Below are positions 603 to 43,950 of a stretch of 43,950 bases of DNA, piece by piece. A program made the translations under genes and the position numbers. The DNA is taken from positions 1-43,950 of IMG/VR virus record IMGVR_UViG_3300037258_001193; one strand, written 5' to 3'. Position 1 is the stretch's first letter; every line of letters starts with the position of its first letter. Source of the DNA: a virus. The notes under the pieces were generated by a model, which was given only the letters and a program-made list of their open reading frames with translations, did no database searches and was not told the DNA's origin.

Positions 603-1032
603 ACCATAGGTCAATGGACGCCATGTAATTGACCGCTACCGCAGAACTGGTATTCTTCTCGATAGCGTTTTGCTTGTTTTGTTTTCGCCCCTGCTCTGTG
701 TGAGTGGGGGCTTTTTCTTTCCCGTACCATATCGCCAGTTTGAGTGCCGCTTCCTTTTCCTTGCATCCTTCCATCAGGGCGACGAAATTGATCACATCCC
801 CGCCCCTACGCCCCCCATTGTTTGCGTTGCAGGAATCAGAGAAGCAGCGCCAGTAATTTCCCGCCAAGTTGATGGAAAACGATTTCGAACTGTCGTCCTT
901 TTTGTGGGTGGGAAGCGGACATACGCACACGGCATAATCTCCCTTGAATCTCAGGGCGATCTTGTATCGCGCGAGCACGTCGGTTAATTTAGCGGTTGTT
1001 TTGATTTTCTCAAAATCGAGGTCAGGGAACAT
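484..1032 (-). CDS. Orphan CHC2 zinc-finger protein (DnaG N-terminal domain type)
   Basis: The 182-residue protein carries a DnaG-type zinc-binding domain: C38-x4-H43, a 19-residue spacer with KSFSIN, C63-x4-C68, then GGDVINFVALMEG, the segment that follows the finger in bacterial primases. In DnaG this domain reads template DNA before primer synthesis. The TOPRIM catalytic domain is missing, and residues 105-182 are charged and low in complexity. It may act with a host or phage polymerase domain encoded elsewhere, or as a DNA-binding replication factor. A GGAGG sits 9 bases before the ATG, and a terminator follows the gene. Domain identification is firm; the role is inference. Confidence 0.85.
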   Translation of the reverse strand: MFPDLDFEKIKTTAKLTDVLARYKIALRFKGDYAVCVCPLPTHKKDDSSKSFSINLAGNYWRCFSDSCNANNGGRRGGDVINFVALMEGCKEKEAALKLAIWYGKEKAPTHTEQGRKQNKQNAIEKNTSSAVAVNYMASIDLWFNETFERLPEEDEESFWSRVRKATKSKLVESYKAGQKSV

Positions 1033-1050
1033 ATCGCTCCTCCAATTGAG

Positions 1051-1076
1051 AAAAGCCCCGCATCGGCAGGGCTTTT
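1051..1076 (-). terminator. Terminator hairpin downstream of the minus-strand small gene
   Basis: AAAAGCCC pairs with GGGCTTTT over a 10-base loop. On the minus strand the stem ends in a short T run. It separates the frame-disrupted gene (1080-1287) from the CHC2 gene. Confidence 0.65.
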
Positions 1077-1079
1077 GGT

Positions 1080-1287
1080 TCAGAACGCATCGCTCTTTTC
1101 AAAGAACACGATGTCATAGCCGTCCCTGATGAACTCGGCGACGGCATTGCGTGATTCTTCGATTTTGACATTGAGCTGGCCTTTATCGCCGGCCCACGCC
1201 GCCCCGATCTGAATGCATCGGCTCGGGCTCTTGTCTTTCCTTGTGCTGTGAAACACATACGTTGTAATCCGGCTTCTTTCCTGCCAT
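1080..1287 (-). pseudogene. Frame-disrupted small conserved protein (KKPDYN...IGAAW family)
   Basis: On the minus strand an ATG at 1287, preceded by GAAAGGA, opens MAGKKPDYNV. The frame then fails. One base over, a frame continues with YVFHSTRKDK, CIQIGAAWAGDKGQLNVKI and an acidic C-terminus ending at 1080. Together they rebuild a small conserved phage/plasmid protein of the form KKPDYNVYV...IGAAW..KDGxGxxI. A single-base indel near 1258 would restore one 68-residue protein. It could be a true decay mutation, an assembly error or programmed shifting. A terminator follows. The joined product is inferred; both halves are seen. Confidence 0.55.
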
Positions 1288-1393
1288 GAGAAAGCTGTCC
1301 TTTCAAGCAGCTCCCCTAAGCATGGGGTAACCACGGAGAAACACAAGGCGCAGGTTGGGGATAAATAACCTTGCAATAACGCGTGCATTTGTC

Positions 1394-1579
1394 ATGATTC
1401 AAGCAATGGCATCGCTCTCGTTTTTCATTAAGAAGTTCGGCCGGCGCGAAGGCCGGGAACGCTACAATGCAGTCCATCGCCAGTACCGGAAAACGCATTT
1501 AGAAGAGATCCGGAAGTATCGGCGTGAGTACATGAGGGGTTGGAGATCCCGCAAAATAACGGCTCATAAGGCGGATTGA
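1394..1579 (+). CDS. Small Arg/Tyr-rich basic protein
   Basis: The product is 61 residues (a start at 1355 would add 13). The C-terminal half is strongly basic, with YRKTHLEEIRKYRREYM, a pattern seen next to HNH-type or ribosomal S14-like small phage proteins, and probably binds nucleic acid. No Shine-Dalgarno is visible. Two DnaA-box-like sites begin directly after the stop codon. Function is unknown. Confidence 0.45.
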   Translation: MIQAMASLSFFIKKFGRREGRERYNAVHRQYRKTHLEEIRKYRREYMRGWRSRKITAHKAD

Positions 1580-1580
1580 G

Positions 1581-1615
1581 TTATCCACACCCCCGCTTGA
1601 CGGCGGTTATCCACT
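1581..1615 (+). other. Two DnaA-box-like sites in tandem (possible origin)
   Basis: TTATCCACA (1581-1589) is a perfect DnaA box and TTATCCACT (1607-1615) is a one-mismatch copy in the same direction 26 bases on. They begin a gene-poor stretch of about 190 bases (1616-1807) in which I see no convincing gene. A role in initiation is inference. Confidence 0.4.
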
Positions 1616-1640
1616 TGCTATTGTTAAGGGGTAGTCAGGA

Positions 1641-1663
1641 TGGTTCGTTGATTGAGGGGGAGG
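1641..1663 (+). repeat. Gapped repeat shared with 39947-39966
   Basis: TGGTTCGTTGAT followed by GGGGGAGG occurs here with a three-base TGA insert and again at 39947-39966 without it. Both copies lie in gene-free DNA near opposite ends of the element. The meaning is unknown. Confidence 0.4.
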
Positions 1664-1774
1664 CATCTGAATATGGAGAGCGGCCGCATTAATAGGGTGC
1701 ACGGGTTCAACTCCCACGGTAACGCCCGAAGCTAAACGGTTGAGCGCCCCCACCTCCGCCAGCGAATCATCCAA

Positions 1775-1783
1775 AAGGTCGAA
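1775..1783 (+). promoter_or_regulatory. AAGGTCGAA motif upstream of the 1808 gene
   Basis: This 9-mer lies 24 bases before the ATG of the small membrane gene at 1808. The same word sits 17-24 bases before four other starts in this window. Role unknown. Confidence 0.4.
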
Positions 1784-1807
1784 CACATAAATCAATTCCA
1801 ACAGACC

Positions 1808-1987
1808 ATGAAAAACAATATAGACACCGAGCTTGTCGGCGGCGGGATAGAGAACGACTGGAGCTATCTCAGGCCCGTCACCTACGTTCCGATGTGGAGG
1901 GTAGCGCTTGAGATGATCGGATTCATCCTCATTGTGGGGGGCCTCCTCTACGGACTCTTGTGGCTCGCGTCGATCGGCGCGTTCTAA
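1808..1987 (+). CDS. Small single-pass membrane protein
   Basis: This 59-residue protein has a polar N-terminus (MKNNIDTELVGGG) and one hydrophobic helix near residues 36-57 (LEMIGFILIVGGLLYGLLWL) ending at the C-terminus. It opens the early plus-strand gene run, has no Shine-Dalgarno, starts with the ACCATG context common in this phage, and is preceded by an AAGGTCGAA motif. Function is unknown. Confidence 0.6.
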   Translation: MKNNIDTELVGGGIENDWSYLRPVTYVPMWRVALEMIGFILIVGGLLYGLLWLASIGAF

Positions 1988-1995
1988 AGACTCTC

Positions 1996-2043
1996 ATTCG
2001 AGGGGGCAGCGGCTAAGACGAGAGCCTTTCCGCTCCCTCGAAT
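1996..2043 (+). other. Strong two-step stem-loop between genes
   Basis: ATTCGAGGG (1996-2004) pairs perfectly with CCCTCGAAT (2035-2043), and inside it AGCGG (2008-2012) pairs with CCGCT (2030-2034). No T run follows, so it may be a processing or regulatory hairpin rather than a classical terminator. Confidence 0.65.
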
Positions 2044-2072
2044 CGCGGAAATAAATTAAGCAATTCACAACC

Positions 2073-2363
2073 ATGAAAAAGCTAAATGCAGTGAAGGCGA
2101 TGGATCTCGCTCTTAAGCACAACGGATTCCAGGGCATCCCCGCGCAAATTCGTGCCCGTTACGTATCGATGTTGGTTTCGCGAGCAGTGCGTTTCTACAT
2201 TGAAAGCGATCTCGATGCAAATGTCATCGACGAAGATTTGGCGGATGGCGCTACAGACATAGGCTTTTATGAATCCGGCGGTCCACTCAAGAAGACAGAT
2301 CTTTGCAATTTGATCTACAGCGAGGAGCATGAGTCGAAGTTCCAGCAATCGCTACGCCAATAA
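2073..2363 (+). CDS. Hypothetical early phage protein
   Basis: The 96-residue soluble protein is predicted mainly helical, with an acidic middle (residues about 50-62) and no recognised motif. The start is preceded by AAATTAA 13 bases upstream and has no Shine-Dalgarno, like other genes of this block. It is first in a closely spaced run that leads to the candidate ssDNA-binding protein at 3403, so a DNA-metabolism role is possible but not shown. Confidence 0.65.
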   Translation: MKKLNAVKAMDLALKHNGFQGIPAQIRARYVSMLVSRAVRFYIESDLDANVIDEDLADGATDIGFYESGGPLKKTDLCNLIYSEEHESKFQQSLRQ

Positions 2364-2371
2364 TTAATCCC

Positions 2372-2581
2372 ATGGCAAACAAAATCATCGAGTCAGTATT
2401 GAGCGGCCAGGACGACCTCGTATGGTGCCCGCAAGGAGCGCACGTCGTCATGAAGGACGACTTCGAGCCCCGCGCCGGCATGTGCGGAGCGTGCATCAGC
2501 GAAGCGATGGCGGAATGCGGAGAGTATTTCGCACACCGAGGGTTGGTCGCCTCGGGGGAAGAACAAGAAGCCAATGACTGA
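2372..2581 (+). CDS. Small Cys-containing early protein
   Basis: This 69-residue acidic protein has W-C-P-Q-G at residue 19 and a later MCGACI segment, so Cys19 with C38 and C41 could form a metal site. The start lies 8 bases after the preceding stop, without a Shine-Dalgarno. Its stop overlaps the next gene's ATG. Function is unknown. Confidence 0.6.
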   Translation: MANKIIESVLSGQDDLVWCPQGAHVVMKDDFEPRAGMCGACISEAMAECGEYFAHRGLVASGEEQEAND

Positions 2582-2744
2582 AAAGCAATTCCGATCGTGG
2601 TGGGAGAACAAGCTCCGCGGTGCATCCGCCCGCGCGAAGTACCAGGACAGCCCGACGCGGTTTCGGTTCAAAGTGCCAACGCTGATCCAAAACCTTGAAG
2701 CGATCCTTAAAGAGGCGAAGCGGCGCGCAAAGACAACTCGGTAG
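2574..2744 (+). CDS. Small basic protein, translationally coupled
   Basis: This 56-residue basic protein begins MTEKQFRSWWENKL and ends in a Lys/Arg-rich helix (KEAKRRAKTTR). It overlaps the end of the previous gene by eight bases and ends three bases before the next start, which fits an operon. Nucleic-acid binding is possible from charge alone. Confidence 0.55.
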   Translation: MTEKQFRSWWENKLRGASARAKYQDSPTRFRFKVPTLIQNLEAILKEAKRRAKTTR

Positions 2745-37010: not shown

Positions 37011-37895
37011 ATGACAAACAAGTTGCAGCCGCTCGTGGAAGTCTTCGGATTTCCGATCGACAACATGAGCGACGAAGCTGCCAGGTACCGTAAGAGCAGG
37101 CTTTGCCCCTTTAACAATAAGGTCCCAAATTGCACGAAAGACAAGCTGAACGACCCGCTCGGGGTATGCGCGGTGTTCGAGCAAGACTTTACGGCTATCA
37201 CCTGTCCGGTGCGGTTCCGCGAGAATTGGATCATCGTGGAAGACGGCGCTGACTTCTTCTTCCCGAAAGGGGCTAGCTGGACCTCGCTCACGGAGGTGCG
37301 GCTGAAAGACAAATACGGGAAGTCTGCAGGCAACATCGATCTCGTCCTGGTCTCGTATGACCACGACGGGAAGATCAAGGATTTTGGCGCGCTGGAGGTC
37401 CAGGGCGTCTACATCTCGGGAAATGTTCGGGATCCCTTCGCGTTCTACATGAAGGATCCCGCGGGTCGAAAGAACATGAACTGGCGCGGAAAGCTCAAAT
37501 ACCCCGGCCCGGACTATCTCTCATCTTCGAGGAAACGCCTCGCGCCGCAGCTCATTTTCAAAGGCGGCATCCTGAATAGTTGGGGAAAGAAATCAGCCGT
37601 GGTTCTTGACCAAGGCTTTTTCAACACCCTCCCAAAGCTCACCGAGGTGCCGAAGGATAAGGCCGAGATCGCTTGGTTCATCTACGATCTCGAACTGAAC
37701 AAAAAGACGAATCGCTTTGTGCTCGTGAGGAAAAAGACGGTTTACACCAAGTTTCTGGAAGCGCTCGAAAAAATCACGCGCTCCGATCCGGGGAAGATGG
37801 AGAGCTTCATGTCCGTTATTCAAAAAAAGCTCGACAAGAAACTGATTGATGGCGTCGAAGAAGAGGACGAAACACCTCTTTCCACTACTGAATAA
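37011..37895 (+). CDS. NotI-family type II restriction endonuclease
   Basis: The 294-residue protein matches the NotI family: VFGFPIDNMSDEAARYRKSRLCPF, NKVPNCTKDKLNDPLGVCAV, ITCPVRFRENWIIVEDGADFFFP, TSLTEVRLKD, AGNIDLVLVSYD, FGALEVQGVYISGN. The four cysteines C32, C41, C53, C65 match NotI's unusual Cys4 metal site, and D110 with E129-x-Q131 are the probable catalytic residues. The adjacent methylase is an adenine enzyme, so the target may not be the NotI site. It probably gives the lysogen protection against other phages. Confidence 0.9.
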   Translation: MTNKLQPLVEVFGFPIDNMSDEAARYRKSRLCPFNNKVPNCTKDKLNDPLGVCAVFEQDFTAITCPVRFRENWIIVEDGADFFFPKGASWTSLTEVRLKDKYGKSAGNIDLVLVSYDHDGKIKDFGALEVQGVYISGNVRDPFAFYMKDPAGRKNMNWRGKLKYPGPDYLSSSRKRLAPQLIFKGGILNSWGKKSAVVLDQGFFNTLPKLTEVPKDKAEIAWFIYDLELNKKTNRFVLVRKKTVYTKFLEALEKITRSDPGKMESFMSVIQKKLDKKLIDGVEEEDETPLSTTE

Positions 37896-37912
37896 AAACC
37901 TATAATGAAGTT

Positions 37913-38806
37913 ATGAATCAATTGGCTCTCTGGACTAGCGAGGCCCCACAGCCGGATCGCGTCGTGAACGTCTCGCAAATTCCCCAGAGGAGCCCATTCC
38001 GCTATCCGGGCGGGAAGACATGGCTCGTTCCTCACATCAGAACGTGGCTCAAGAGCGGCAAAAAGCCGAAGCTCTTTATTGAACCGTTCGTCGGCGGCGG
38101 AATTGTAAGCCTAACGGTCGCGTTCGAGGATTTGGCTGACCAGGTCATCATGGTCGAGCTCGACGACGAGGTCGCGGCCCTGTGGGAAACGATGCTCGGG
38201 GACGACAACGAATGGCTCGCCGAGCGCGTCGTCTCGTTTGACCTTTCCTACGAGTCAGCGAAGGAAGTGATGACTGCTTCCACTGAAAGCCGCCGGGAAA
38301 TCGGATTCCGGACCCTGCTCAAAAACAGAACGTACCACGGCGGGATCCTTGCCCCTGGTAGTGGACTGTTGAAATATGGCGAGGGCGGAAAAGGGATCAA
38401 GTCCCGCTGGTACCCTCAAACTCTTGCGAAGCGCATCCGGAACATCGCCCACGTCCGCGATAAGATCACCTTTATTCAAGGCGACGGGATTGCGATCATT
38501 AGGCAATACGCGAATCGTAAGACGGCCGCATTCCTCGTTGACCCACCCTACACAGCGGGGCGCAAGGGCAAACGCGCCGGCAGCCGTCTCTATACTCACT
38601 TCGAACTTGATCATGATGAGCTCTTTCGGCAGGCCGAGAGAATCCAAGGAAGTCTCTTAATGACCTATGACAATGCCGAAGAAGTAAAGGAAATGGCAGG
38701 GCGCCACGGATTTGAAACCGCTCTGATTTCCATGATGAACACGCATCACGCTACGATGCAGGAGCTCATCATCGGCCACGATCTCCAATGGGCTTCTGAC
38801 TTCTAG
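37913..38806 (+). CDS. D12-class N6-adenine DNA methyltransferase
   Basis: The 297-residue protein has the D12/Dam-type motifs: FRYPGGK (residues 29-35), EPFVGGG (57-63) for S-adenosylmethionine, and DPPYT (210-214) as catalytic motif IV. It would methylate adenine at the restriction site of the neighbouring NotI-type enzyme. The 17-base gap and shared direction fit an R-M pair. The recognition sequence cannot be read from the sequence. Confidence 0.92.
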   Translation: MNQLALWTSEAPQPDRVVNVSQIPQRSPFRYPGGKTWLVPHIRTWLKSGKKPKLFIEPFVGGGIVSLTVAFEDLADQVIMVELDDEVAALWETMLGDDNEWLAERVVSFDLSYESAKEVMTASTESRREIGFRTLLKNRTYHGGILAPGSGLLKYGEGGKGIKSRWYPQTLAKRIRNIAHVRDKITFIQGDGIAIIRQYANRKTAAFLVDPPYTAGRKGKRAGSRLYTHFELDHDELFRQAERIQGSLLMTYDNAEEVKEMAGRHGFETALISMMNTHHATMQELIIGHDLQWASDF

Positions 38807-39100: not shown

Positions 39101-39334
39101 TCACGCTCCGAACTGCAAATGCACGTCGAGAAACAGCATCACTCTCTCAGCGAGCGTCAGATAGCCTGGCAACATCGAATCGCTGAGTTTGGAAAGATTG
39201 CAGATGTGAAGGTTTTCGGCCGCCTCAAGAACTATTTCATTGGCGGCCGTCGTTACGACGTTCTCACATTCTTCGCAAAACGAGGTTTGACTACCGTCCG
39301 GATTGATCCGGCGTATGAAGGTAACTGAAGGCAT
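39101..39334 (-). CDS. Short Cys/His zinc protein
   Basis: The 77-residue protein has FIRRINPDGSQTSFCEECENVV, then AAENLHICNLSKL: a C-x2-C and H-x-C arrangement in the form DGSxxSFCxxC...ExxHxC that I associate with short conserved proteins of Acidobacteriota. GGAG lies eight bases before the ATG. Its function is unknown. The overlapping plus-strand ORF was rejected. Confidence 0.7.
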   Translation of the reverse strand: MPSVTFIRRINPDGSQTSFCEECENVVTTAANEIVLEAAENLHICNLSKLSDSMLPGYLTLAERVMLFLDVHLQFGA

Positions 39335-39493
39335 GGAGCGAACTCCAAGGAGGGAGGAGAGCCCGGACCACGATCGAGATATGGTCTCTGCACGACAGTA
39401 TGCGTCAAATCCCTAGTTACTTCTATATAAATAAAAAGAGGCGAGTTTTCCACAAACGAGGCGTTTCTCTCTTCGGCGTCCTCACAGTGCCAG

Positions 39494-39685
39494 TTACTCG
39501 CCGGTAAACCGCCGTCCGCCCATGAGCACGCCAAATCCCACCCCAAAGCACAGGCCCGAGGCAATGAGCTGAACACGATCAGATCCATGTATCAGGTGGA
39601 GGCGCGGGTTATTCAAACTGTTCATTAGCACGAGTATCCCAAACAGAAGCAAGAACCCCGCCACAGCCAATCTTCGTCTGTCCAT
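39494..39685 (-). CDS. Small two-helix membrane protein
   Basis: The 63-residue protein has two membrane segments (residues 5-21, RLAVAGFLLLFGILVLM, and 42-56, ASGLCFGVGFGVLMG) joined by a polar loop. A strong AGGAGG lies six bases before the ATG. It resembles chromosomal small membrane proteins rather than phage holins; it is probably cargo. Confidence 0.7.
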   Translation of the reverse strand: MDRRRLAVAGFLLLFGILVLMNSLNNPRLHLIHGSDRVQLIASGLCFGVGFGVLMGGRRFTGE

Positions 39686-39779
39686 GCCAGCCTCCTAAGA
39701 AAAGTTGTCCACAGCATACGCCTTGCGCGATTTCATGGATGCTTCATAATTCACTTGTCCTTCATGGACGGCCGAGTCG

Positions 39780-40350
39780 CCCGATAACCTTTTGGCGGGC
39801 AGCTCTGGATAGCGCGGGGAAACCCAAGCTTGAAAGGGCTCTCGGCCAAAGGGTTTTTCTTTTCATCCGAGAGTGAAGGTGTCCGGGCAGACCCCGGCCC
39901 AAGCAGGGCGACGGCTGACGACTTGCCGACCCTGTAATGCGGAATGTGGTTCGTTGATGGGGGAGGAAAGTTCAAAAGACGGAACTTCTCTAAGGAGGCG
40001 AGAAAGTGGGCGCGGGGAGAGCAACGCGACTGACCCATGAGTACCGACAAGCCAAAGTATCTCTCACATTCTTTGGCGACTGGTAGCTCCAGCCCCTCCC
40101 CACCAGCGAATCACTTGGTAGTTTGGTAGAGCCACCGCAAACGGAAACGCCGTCAAGAACGGCCTCTGAATGACGCAGGAAATGTCCTCCGGCTTCGAGG
40201 ACAGAGAAGGGCGAACCGGTTTCCCCGTCCAGCTTCGACCCCTGCGATCCAACACGAAACGGCAAATCGGCGACGAGACACAGCGAAGGATGAAATATAA
40301 AAGAGCCGCAATACAAAGCGCTAGCCGCTGATTTTTAAGATCTGACCCCA
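39780..40350 (+). ncRNA. Candidate large structured noncoding RNA
   Basis: The gene-free interval 39686-40496 (811 bases) is unusual in this packed genome. Perfect or near-perfect helices: 39839-39845 with 39867-39873 (seven pairs); 39883-39887 with 39893-39897; 39904-39908 with 39930-39934 enclosing 39912-39915 with 39925-39928; 39968-39973 with 39982-39987; 40011-40014 with 40025-40028; 40051-40057 with 40071-40077 (seven pairs); 40149-40153 with 40159-40163; 40183-40189 with 40197-40203 (seven pairs). Loops are purine-rich on the plus strand. Size and place recall GOLLD/ROOL-type phage RNAs, but no family is recognised. Confidence 0.45.
39947..39966 (+). repeat. Gapped repeat shared with 1641-1663
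   Basis: TGGTTCGTTGAT followed directly by GGGGGAGG. The other copy carries a three-base insert. It lies within the candidate ncRNA. Confidence 0.4.
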
Positions 40351-40496
40351 TCTGTAAAAAGTCGAGGGGCAAATCAGCCGGGAACGAACCTTCAATTCAG
40401 TCTTCGAATCTCGATTGTGGTATCCTAATCGGCAAGTCGCTCATCTGCATCGGCCAGTGGCCGGCGCTAAATCAAGGTGGCGATTTAGGAGAATGT

Positions 40497-41678
40497 ATGA
40501 AATCCCATCCGGCGAAAGCCGTCGTAGTCCCGTTTCCGTTTCATTCCTTCCGCAACATCAGCTGTCCAGAAGATACTGAGAATGACCGTAAGGTCTTCAG
40601 CGGGCATGCCCCTATCATGTCGGTTTTGCAGCTCGAAACCGATGCTAACGTGCGCGACTATCTGCTTGAGGCTGAAGGCAAGCAACGTCGGCGCGAGACG
40701 CAGGTAAATCGGGAGATCCGGCAGACACTCGAAAGCAAGCCACAGGTCTTTTCCATTCTCAATGGTGGAGTGGTGATTGTCGCGCATCGTCACGATGTCG
40801 ATGAACAGAAAAAGCTCCTCCGTCTTACGAATCCGAGTATCATCAACGGGTCGCAGACCCAGGGGGTTTTGATCGATTTTTTTTCGCGGCTTGCTGAAGT
40901 GAAGGAGGATGCGCCACACATCCATATCAAATATGAGCTCATCGTCACAGAAGACGAAGATCTCATCGGCGAGATCTCGATCGCACGTAACTTCCAGAAC
41001 GACGTCGCGAGCATCTCGATTGCCGGCCGTAGAGGGCAACTCGACGAACTCGAACGTGCTCTCCGGAAAGCTGATTCCGACGCGAAGCTTCAGAAGAAGG
41101 AAACGCAGCTATCCGAAGACTACGTGCAGACGGAACGGCTTCTGCAGGTGATCACCGCGCTCATCCCCTCTTCGCTATGGCCGAAGACGAACGAGGCTGA
41201 TAACCCGAATAAGGTCTACACCTACAGCATGAAGGCGAAGTGTCTGAGGGAATTTCAGGAAATCTTTAACAAGGCGCACGATAAGAAGCATCCCGAATAC
41301 GAGTCCGCTAAGGAGCTCTATCAGTTTTATCTCGACGTCGCGGCGCAGGCGCTGGAACTCTACGAGAAATGGAAGTCCCATCAAGGCTTTGCAGGTACCG
41401 GAATCCGCTCAATCACTCGTGAGGGTCGGGAAATCGTCGAAGTGCCCGACGGCATTATCTTTCCGATCATCGCTTCACTCTCAGCTTTCGCGAAGAAAAC
41501 TGATAAGGGGTGGCGTATTGTGCCGCCGCAGTCTTTCAAGGATACGGAAATCATTCGCGCGGCGAAAGCGGTCTATCAGAGCATGGCGACTTCAAATCCG
41601 TGGATCATGGGCAAGAATCCTGCATGCTACTTCGCTCTATACCAGATCACGTCGATCTACCAGAAACTTTCAAAATAA
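40497..41678 (+). CDS. AIPR-family abortive-infection/phage-resistance protein
   Basis: The 393-residue protein has the AIPR signature: FSILNGGVVIVAHRHD (residues 85-100), LRLTNPSIINGSQTQGVL (109-125), then ISIARNFQNDV and QLDELERAL. AIPR proteins are associated with abortive infection against phages; the mechanism is not established. AGGAG lies about seven bases before the ATG. It stands directly after the large structured region and near the restriction genes, so this arm looks like a small defence island. Confidence 0.88.
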   Translation: MKSHPAKAVVVPFPFHSFRNISCPEDTENDRKVFSGHAPIMSVLQLETDANVRDYLLEAEGKQRRRETQVNREIRQTLESKPQVFSILNGGVVIVAHRHDVDEQKKLLRLTNPSIINGSQTQGVLIDFFSRLAEVKEDAPHIHIKYELIVTEDEDLIGEISIARNFQNDVASISIAGRRGQLDELERALRKADSDAKLQKKETQLSEDYVQTERLLQVITALIPSSLWPKTNEADNPNKVYTYSMKAKCLREFQEIFNKAHDKKHPEYESAKELYQFYLDVAAQALELYEKWKSHQGFAGTGIRSITREGREIVEVPDGIIFPIIASLSAFAKKTDKGWRIVPPQSFKDTEIIRAAKAVYQSMATSNPWIMGKNPACYFALYQITSIYQKLSK

Positions 41679-42879: not shown

Positions 42880-42910
42880 CCCCCCCTACTGATATTTGCG
42901 TCAGGGGGTC
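42878..42910 (-). terminator. Hairpin between integrase and convergent membrane gene
   Basis: GACCCCC (42878-42884) pairs with GGGGGTC (42904-42910), overlapping the integrase stop. It probably serves both convergent genes, but no T run is present. Confidence 0.5.
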
Positions 42911-43950
42911 GCCCAGACCTTCTTGACCGCCGCATTGATCGCGTCCTGGCGTTGGGAGATCCATTGGCTGTAATGTTTCTCGACGATCCGGGGAGTATTT
43001 CCTAAGATCGCGGCGACCTCCGAAACGGGAATTCCATTCGAGAGCAATTCCACCGCGAGCGTGTGACGAAATCTATGCGCGTGAACTTTTATATGCGCCA
43101 CTTTTCCCAACCGTTTGAGCGTGCGCCACCAGTCCGTCACTGCGGAATGGATGGTCCCATTCCCAGACCAGAAGAAATAACGGCCGTTCATTTCTTCGAG
43201 CGCCGAGACGATCTCCGGATGAGCAGGAATTGATACGCGCTTCCCATTCTTTTCTGTCCGCAAAATGATCTGACCATCGACAATCTTCGAGGAATCGAGC
43301 TGAATCGCATCCCCAATTCTCATCCCTGTCCATCTGAGAATGGCAACGAACGCCCGAACGCGATCGCGGTTCTTCTCTCCATAGATTCCCCAATTAGGAA
43401 ACTTGTCTATCGCCCGCATGATTCGTTGCAGCTCGTCTTTCTCGTAGGGCTTTATTTCGATGTCGTCGATCTTCGGCATCTTGAGGGACTTCGCCGGGCT
43501 CTTTTCTATCCATTCCCTATTCACGCAGAACGTAAAGAATGACCGCAGGCGCCCGATCTTGTACTTTGCCGTTTGCAGCCCCACCGTCCACGATTCCCGG
43601 TATCGAGACACCTCGTCCACGCTAAGAGACCTTACCGGAACATCTCCGAAGAACTCCAGGCATTCCCGCTTTAGGAGACGGTATTTTTGGACCGTCGCGG
43701 GCATGGAGCCGTTCGCCTCGTGTTGCGCGATGAAGCGGTCATAGGCGTCGGAAATCGAGACCACATTCTTTCTCCCGTGGATCTCCCAATCCCTAATTCT
43801 CTTTAGCGCCGCCTCCCAATTCGTGAGATCAAGCGAACGCCGGATGCTTTCCCCATGCAAGACCCCTTGTACCCAGATCGGACAGGAGCATTTCGCGGCC
43901 CGCGCAGTAAACCGGCACTTCGCACGATGACGGCGATAGGGCGTAAGCAT
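42901..43950 (-). CDS. int: Tyrosine recombinase/integrase
   Basis: The 349-residue protein has an N-terminal Cys cluster (C12, C21, C23), a SAM-like core-binding domain (residues about 64-150) and a catalytic domain: R211 in GMRIGDA, K234, H292-x2-R295 in HAHRFRHTLA, and Y327 in EKHYSQW. The usual LGH is LGN (N318) here, a tolerated but less common change. It would catalyse site-specific integration and, with a directionality factor, excision. The start codon is the last base triplet of the window, so attP should lie just beyond. Confidence 0.95.
   Translation of the reverse strand: MLTPYRRHRAKCRFTARAAKCSCPIWVQGVLHGESIRRSLDLTNWEAALKRIRDWEIHGRKNVVSISDAYDRFIAQHEANGSMPATVQKYRLLKRECLEFFGDVPVRSLSVDEVSRYRESWTVGLQTAKYKIGRLRSFFTFCVNREWIEKSPAKSLKMPKIDDIEIKPYEKDELQRIMRAIDKFPNWGIYGEKNRDRVRAFVAILRWTGMRIGDAIQLDSSKIVDGQIILRTEKNGKRVSIPAHPEIVSALEEMNGRYFFWSGNGTIHSAVTDWWRTLKRLGKVAHIKVHAHRFRHTLAVELLSNGIPVSEVAAILGNTPRIVEKHYSQWISQRQDAINAAVKKVWATP

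Follow-up and report, generated by a model that had tools for sequence, protein, structure and literature searches.

A modular, phage-borne RNA element of an undescribed type was found at about 39705-40377 of the IMG/VR record IMGVR_UViG_3300037258_001193 (43,950 bases; the whole record is referred to here as the window). Near the integrase gene, a promoter leads into folded non-coding RNA of about 620 bases. Direct support exists for the position of the element, its homology, the promoter pattern, the pseudoknot, the leader-trailer helix and the exchange of modules. Because 11 relatives keep the layout, the position and the base-pairing while their sequences differ, the RNA element is real. 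It is probably a switch with a processing signal rather than a giant RNA of the GOLLD or ROOL kind. At slightly less than an even chance, we favour a pseudoknotted attenuator followed by boxA-like leader-trailer modules that carry transcription into exchangeable cargo.

Genomic context, coding potential and folding

Judging from its gene content, the record is a temperate tailed phage with a terminase at 9.6 kb, a portal at 13.1 kb, a major head protein at 21.9 kb, a tape measure at 27.6 kb and a reverse-strand integrase (42901-43950) at the right end of the window. Ahead of the integrase are genes for a restriction enzyme of the NotI type, a D12 methyltransferase and AIPR. The adjacent restriction enzyme and D12 adenine methyltransferase (37011-38806) form a restriction-modification-like pair on the phage. 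No tRNA genes were found in the 43,950 bases of the window. The interval 39686-40496 is bounded by a short reverse-strand ORF, which ends at 39685, and by the AIPR gene, which starts at 40497, and a crude gene caller left further gaps in the window besides this one. A sequence-only reading had taken the whole interval for a gene-free structured region; this held for the RNA at about 39705-40377, whereas the final ~60 bases, from 40435 on, are part of the AIPR gene module. The claim that the interval holds no convincing gene was confirmed, with plus-strand ORFs of at most 55 aa and minus-strand ORFs of 99-108 aa that start with TTG. The best-conserved stretch, 40102-40312, is 94% identical in phage G008; its frames were checked, and an indel of 1 nt leaves the two phages without a common one. 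The homologues have no reading frame in common. The locus has no convincing coding content and is a real structured non-coding RNA.

The 811-nt plus strand folded moderately better than its shuffles (z -2.49; equalled by 0/20 shuffles), and the minus strand gave a z of -0.53. The sequence-only reading had rested on at least eight perfect helices of 4-7 pairs, which are chance expectation in 811 nt, and so it found a real RNA through a weak argument. The conserved features are instead the promoter, the pseudoknot and the long leader-trailer helix, visible solely through comparison of phages. Covariation, proposed in that reading as a check, is strong in the pseudoknot and the leader-trailer helix, and the short helices are no part of this evidence. 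The earlier reading was right in that the region is large, structured, non-coding and carried by a phage; its helices covary, and Rfam has no match to it. The whole window gave no family match at the gathering threshold, the region 39300-40600 gave nothing at E<=10 with the GOLLD and ROOL models included, and eight homologous loci gave no GOLLD or ROOL match at E<=1. Over all searches at gathering and permissive thresholds, the sole match was in G008, which has an ordinary tRNA-Met at its end. The suggested likeness to GOLLD and ROOL was not upheld, since no model matched even at E<=10 and the locus is a mosaic of swapped modules, not one fixed giant RNA.

Homologous loci in related phages

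Searches of phage and plasmid collections by BLAST gave nothing similar to the RNA region. In Acidobacteriota, the region had matches of only ~30 nt, and portal relatives in the sampled Acidobacteriota and Verrucomicrobiota were only 23-32% identical. Homologues were reached by two steps only: 41 related phage loci were gathered through the portal protein, and their whole records were searched with the RNA region. Partial matches of high identity came from G008, in three collinear pieces with up to 94% identity, and from G007 (91% over 145 nt), besides short exact ones; G014, G034 and G042 were reached when G008 served as the query. The common layout was recognised by reading the tails together with a scan for the pseudoknot topology. 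Homologues occur in 11 related IMG/VR phages at the matching position, after the late genes and mostly beside the integrase. They have in common a DnaA-box-like motif with a sigma70-like promoter, a pseudoknot with a U-tract, boxA-like modules in most phages, and exchangeable contents. Motif scans in viral contigs gave no copies outside the phage family except probable chance hits.

Promoter, pseudoknot and U-tract

All parts of the element described below lie on the plus strand. A sigma70-like promoter (39723-39750; TTGCGC at 39723-39728, a spacer of 16 nt, CATAAT at 39745-39750) is indicated by sequence and by conservation in related tails, and transcription is expected to start near 39757. 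Upstream of the -35 box is the DnaA-box-like motif TTGTCCACA (39705-39713), which reads TTATCCCCA or TTATCCACA in most other phages. The pattern TTATCCCCA-N1-12-TTG had 31 exact matches in 39 related records and its reversed-pattern control had 0. Many promoters of this phage family have such a motif (TTATCCCCA, TTATCCACA or TTGTCCACA) a few bases ahead of the -35 box; in the window it occurs at 1364(-), 1581(+) and 39705(+). A generic scan for promoter and terminator consensus listed neither the proposed 39723-39750 promoter nor the putative pseudoknot terminator, the latter because the loop limit of the scan is 8.

The pseudoknot (39770-39855) is of the H-type and begins about 15 nt past the expected start. 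Stem S1 pairs GGCCGAG (39770-39776) with CUCGGCC (39841-39847), and stem X pairs AACCUUUUGG (39786-39795) with CCAAAGGGUU (39846-39855). The 5' strand of X sits within the loop of S1 and its 3' strand just beyond S1; the two stems have bases in common at the outer two pairs of X. The terminator-like U-tract UUUUUCUUUUC (39854-39864) is next, as it is after the 3' strand of X in other tails. The X hairpin alone has a fold z of -3.10, and its helix extends into a terminator-like hairpin; together with UUUUUCUUUUC it provides a GC-containing hairpin directly before a U-tract, as in a terminator. The two stems could thus stack coaxially as a pseudoknot or be rivals, one as antiterminator and the other as terminator. 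The U-tract may not terminate, because homology runs on past it.

In the six phages aligned, the pseudoknot was 100% paired and 12/15 pairs were changed on both sides, which was equalled in 0/500 shuffles; slid controls were 35-56% paired. The rows were chosen for pairing, so the percentage leans towards structure, and the count of double-sided changes is in our view the stronger point. The strands read AAGCUUUUUGG/CCAAAGAGCUU in G014 and AACUCUUUGG/CCAAAGAGUU in G033. In G042 the sequence is unrelated and the topology unchanged, and G010, G020 and G040 keep the topology with differing sequences, with 7/7 and 8/8 pairs in these three; the pseudoknots of G037 and G017 were added by eye. The topology scan in 12 genomes gave 23 real occurrences vs 5 in shuffled sequence. 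The promoter, pseudoknot and U-tract are the most widely kept part of the element (12 phages, including the window). Apart from this family, CGCGCCAAAGAGTTTTTCTTTTCAGTAATGACTAATACAAAG is conserved just ahead of a start codon in the contigs L208, L210 and L211 (22.6-97 kb), which are not known as family members, and it has 20 nt in common with the pseudoknot region, perhaps by chance.

The boxA-like leader-trailer helix

In most of the phages, the modules open with UUC(U/G)UUGA, a sequence like the boxA of rRNA operons, and close with a complementary trailer. In the window, the leader strand UGUGGUUCGUUGAUGGGGGAGG (39945-39966) is complementary to the trailer strand CCUCCCCACCAGCGAAUCACU (40095-40115), as seen from covariation and homologous copies. 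Pairing joins 39945-39962 with 40098-40115, where GUUCGUUGAUGGGG (from 39949) faces CCCCACCAGCGAAU (to 40111). In 18 copies from 12 phages, two of them in the window, 15-18 of the 18 pairs were formed in each copy, 90.4% of the cells were paired and 13/18 pairs were changed on both sides (0/500 shuffles), with a covariation score of 0.62 vs 0.22 in shuffles. A blind search using the 13 inner positions only supplied 12 of the 18 copies, and the other six were registered by eye. This search found 15 helices in the real sequence vs 1-5 in controls, and across its 12 copies the outer five pairs, which it had not used, were paired in 52/60 cases. The phage module has the long complementary leader and trailer, kept through covariation, that a unit of the rRNA type would have. 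Tandem copies also occur, three in G020 with differing contents. In G037 and G017, the pseudoknot is present without a clear boxA module.

The boxA core UCUUUGA stands at the module start in most tail copies of the other phages, which read UUCUUUGAA, and the two copies in the window (class II) read UUCGUUGA. For comparison, GGATCTTTGACAAC is found in 16S leaders of Acidobacteriota and AAGTTCTTTGACAAC in a verrucomicrobial rRNA locus. In the window copies, a U-to-G change in the leader is matched by an A-to-C change in the trailer. The helix, and not the box sequence, is thus under constraint in the window, because a boxA base was changed while pairing was kept. By its letters, the window's box is a poor boxA. 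Moreover, boxA is normally read as a single strand, and the box in the phage module can be buried in the helix. NusB/E bind the boxA that precedes 16S and 23S, with GYTCTTTAANA as the gamma-proteobacterial consensus (PMC5725501); in the host of this phage, boxA may read differently. Pre-rRNA is framed by boxA and leader-trailer helices (PMC10250234).

A second copy of the helix in the window (1639-1771, within 1581-1771) stands before the first rightward operon, 63 nt past the promoter box TTATCCACA at 1581, an early promoter. Helix modules follow early promoters in the window (1644), G011, G012 and G008, and an early-leader copy occurs together with a tail copy in the window (1644 and 39950), G008, G014 and G020. 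The module is therefore found near the promoter in leaders of more than one operon per phage, as with nut or put sites. The tail modules lie about 170-370 nt past the promoter box, behind the pseudoknot. Because the helix module recurs at early promoters, a cis-acting signal for transcription or processing is preferred over a unique RNA product. In G040, an extra promoter with an 18/18-bp leader-trailer module (GGAAGTTCGTTAGAAACT..AGTTTCTAGCGAGTTTCC) was observed at 39884-40380, about 2.5 kb before the tail element.

Exchangeable contents

An all-against-all comparison of ten tails gave a mosaic, in which phage pairs have some modules in common in the same order; at the sensitivity of this comparison, those modules did not recur elsewhere in the genomes. 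In the window, a small hairpin domain, GCAGGGC..GACGACUU..GACCCUGU (39903-39935; fold z -2.20), is 79% identical in G008, without significant covariation. The 128 nt inside the leader-trailer helix (39967-40094) are unique and have no counterpart in the other phages. The block 40102-40312, 94% identical to G008:49124-49333, is too similar for a covariation test and its inner structure gave no significant covariation. The 3' stem-loop CUGAUUUUU..AAAAAGUC..GCAAAUCAG (40328-40377) is matched in G008 at 79% identity along about 60 nt, and its covariation was not significant either. Among the relatives, covariation was strong for a module of G008 and G034 (6 two-sided changes; as many in 0/100 column shuffles) and suggestive for a hairpin of G007 and G014 and a domain of G033 and G042. 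G008 and G014 also have an 85%-identical insert in common.

Some modules (G020, G042, G008) contain sequences like the tRNA T-arm, AGAGGUUCAAAUCCUCA, GGUUCGACCC and GGGGUUCGAGUCCCC (G020 reverse strand 2428-2294, L077 about 1800-1890, L091 about 1876-2013); ARAGORN called no tRNA in the modules, including these. On the reverse strand of G033 (about 1883-1650), a boxA-like leader-trailer helix surrounds a complete 58-aa ORF (MGEEKTYTIND...) without a confident family match; a supposed likeness to Acb2/Tad1 sponges has no support from Pfam. In G007, an HNH endonuclease gene starts directly behind the pseudoknot U-tract, beside an OLD-family nuclease gene (L057:2843-3295(+) and 612-2720(-)). A G-rich tract, GGGGGGTAGGGGGGG or GGGGGGGTAAGGGGGGG, was observed near the 3' end of the RNA region, ahead of the next small ORF, in four phages (G007:43673, G010:13361, G034:2594(-), G037:39727).

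Alternative explanations

The gene downstream had been described as a Shine-Dalgarno-led abortive-infection gene, and this was correct: it encodes a 393-aa AIPR protein (40497-41678) that is genuine as judged from its match to PF10592 (E 2.8e-27). The gene and its leader, which has a hairpin and the Shine-Dalgarno sequence, form a cargo module (40435-41678, plus strand) outside the RNA element. With AIPR next on the same strand behind a clear Shine-Dalgarno sequence, and no strong promoter identified for AIPR itself, the RNA might be taken for a long 5' leader that regulates this gene. We regard this as very improbable, because the other phages with the RNA have no AIPR, the AIPR relatives outside this phage lack the RNA, and the common AIPR leader starts only at 40435. 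AIPR was absent from the 29 phage records compared, the window excepted. An Acidobacteriaceae contig has 76.6% DNA similarity over 40435-41671 and no counterpart of the RNA region, and searches centred on AIPR gave relatives outside this phage without the RNA. Conservation of the RNA element beside the AIPR gene, which would mark an AIPR/AbiU system, was not found. With AIPR and the RNA occurring separately, the RNA element cannot be counted as a component of a conserved defence system, a possibility raised in the sequence-only reading.

A functional large non-coding RNA similar to GOLLD or ROOL, whose full ~620-nt transcript would fold and build up in lysogeny or lysis as a particle or ribonucleoprotein, is doubtful but deserves consideration given the size, the phage context, the elaborate covarying structure with its pseudoknot, and the tRNA-arm-like inserts in G020, G042 and G008. 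It implies a conserved frame with variable insertions, whereas the contents of the relatives differ almost completely and the tails of G037 and G017 keep little but promoter and pseudoknot; the helix module at early operon leaders also fits a signal rather than a unique product. Wide retention of promoter, pseudoknot and U-tract, and the HNH gene directly behind the U-tract in G007, would agree with a short pseudoknotted sRNA gene, whose terminated RNA of ~105 nt acts in trans and whose flank is a secondary landing place for modules and cargo. This is unlikely, as the helices further downstream covary as well and are in the same order in most tails. That the locus holds no functional RNA, only decayed genes or random sequence, is hardly credible: the 811-nt fold only moderately beats its shuffles, but pairing survives double-sided changes in two independent structures, and the covariation of pseudoknot and leader-trailer helix already refutes this explanation.

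Proposed mechanism

We hypothesize that, in a family of temperate phages, the element is a modular cis-acting RNA transcription unit. Its promoter, at the end of the prophage, would start a transcript whose first ~105 nt form the pseudoknot ending in the U-tract, and S1 against the extended X hairpin would act as a gate of the terminator/antiterminator type. Polymerase that passes the gate would transcribe one or more modules, each running, like pre-rRNA, from a boxA-like leader to its complementary trailer. While still single-stranded, the leader could attract NusB/S10 of the host, or a factor of the phage, and so make the polymerase resistant to termination. Once closed, the helix could be a substrate for RNase III or another nuclease that cuts double strands. 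The boxA-like box cannot open the gate, because it comes after, and not before, the putative terminator. The unit would drive exchangeable content, namely structured RNA modules, small ORFs and the genes behind (AIPR in the window, HNH in G007). Termination gating, boxA-like antitermination, helix cutting and cargo expression are steps that we infer from this arrangement. A bolder version, possible but rather improbable, is a phage form of rRNA operon logic, in which a pseudoknot-gated promoter and swapped boxA-like cassettes release structured RNAs or small proteins during lysogeny; if true, it would be a cassette system for phage non-coding RNAs.

Comparison with known systems and implications

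GOLLD has one less conserved half and a linker able to hold tRNAs (PMC12286853). GOLLD, ROOL and the present locus are alike in size range, prophage or phage setting, extensive structure with pseudoknots and the lack of a known protein partner. The phage locus differs in having no covariance-model match, mosaic contents, no tRNA array nearby and a helix module common to early operon leaders; neither the Rfam match nor the nearby tRNA genes that mark GOLLD and ROOL were found. A further mark of those two RNAs is an abundant, stable product that assembles into homo-oligomers. The locus resembles an rRNA operon leader in the boxA-like UUCUUUGAA at the start, in the structured contents enclosed by a long leader and its complementary trailer, and in tandem repetition (16S and 23S; up to three modules in G020). 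Unlike in that leader, the contents are not rRNA, class II copies such as those of the window have UUCGUUGA, the box itself is paired, and the phage-borne module comes after a pseudoknot and U-tract. The HK022 put RNA is a phage antitermination signal, likened here by description. With lambda nut and HK022 put the locus has in common an RNA signal that occurs in at least two operon leaders of a phage, right behind the promoter, whereas this phage family has no identified N-like protein, a much longer helix and exchangeable contents.

Phage ICP1 has a non-coding transcript of ~800 nt (PMC7567579). By description it is alike in its large size, in being non-coding and in the absence of tRNAs from the phage, but ICP1 is virulent and the transcript is positioned at the lysis cluster. 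In boxA-protected CRISPR arrays, as far as they are described where PMC12691694 cites them, boxA carries polymerase through long untranslated RNA; the present locus differs in having no repeats or spacers and in being phage-borne.

The family described here lets the constant parts, gate and closing helix, be told from the exchangeable ones, and signal and payload are therefore separately testable in a laboratory host. To our knowledge, large phage non-coding RNAs are few and their roles are unknown. From this family it may also become clear how temperate phages keep polymerase moving across long cargo, untranslated or foreign, at the end of the prophage.
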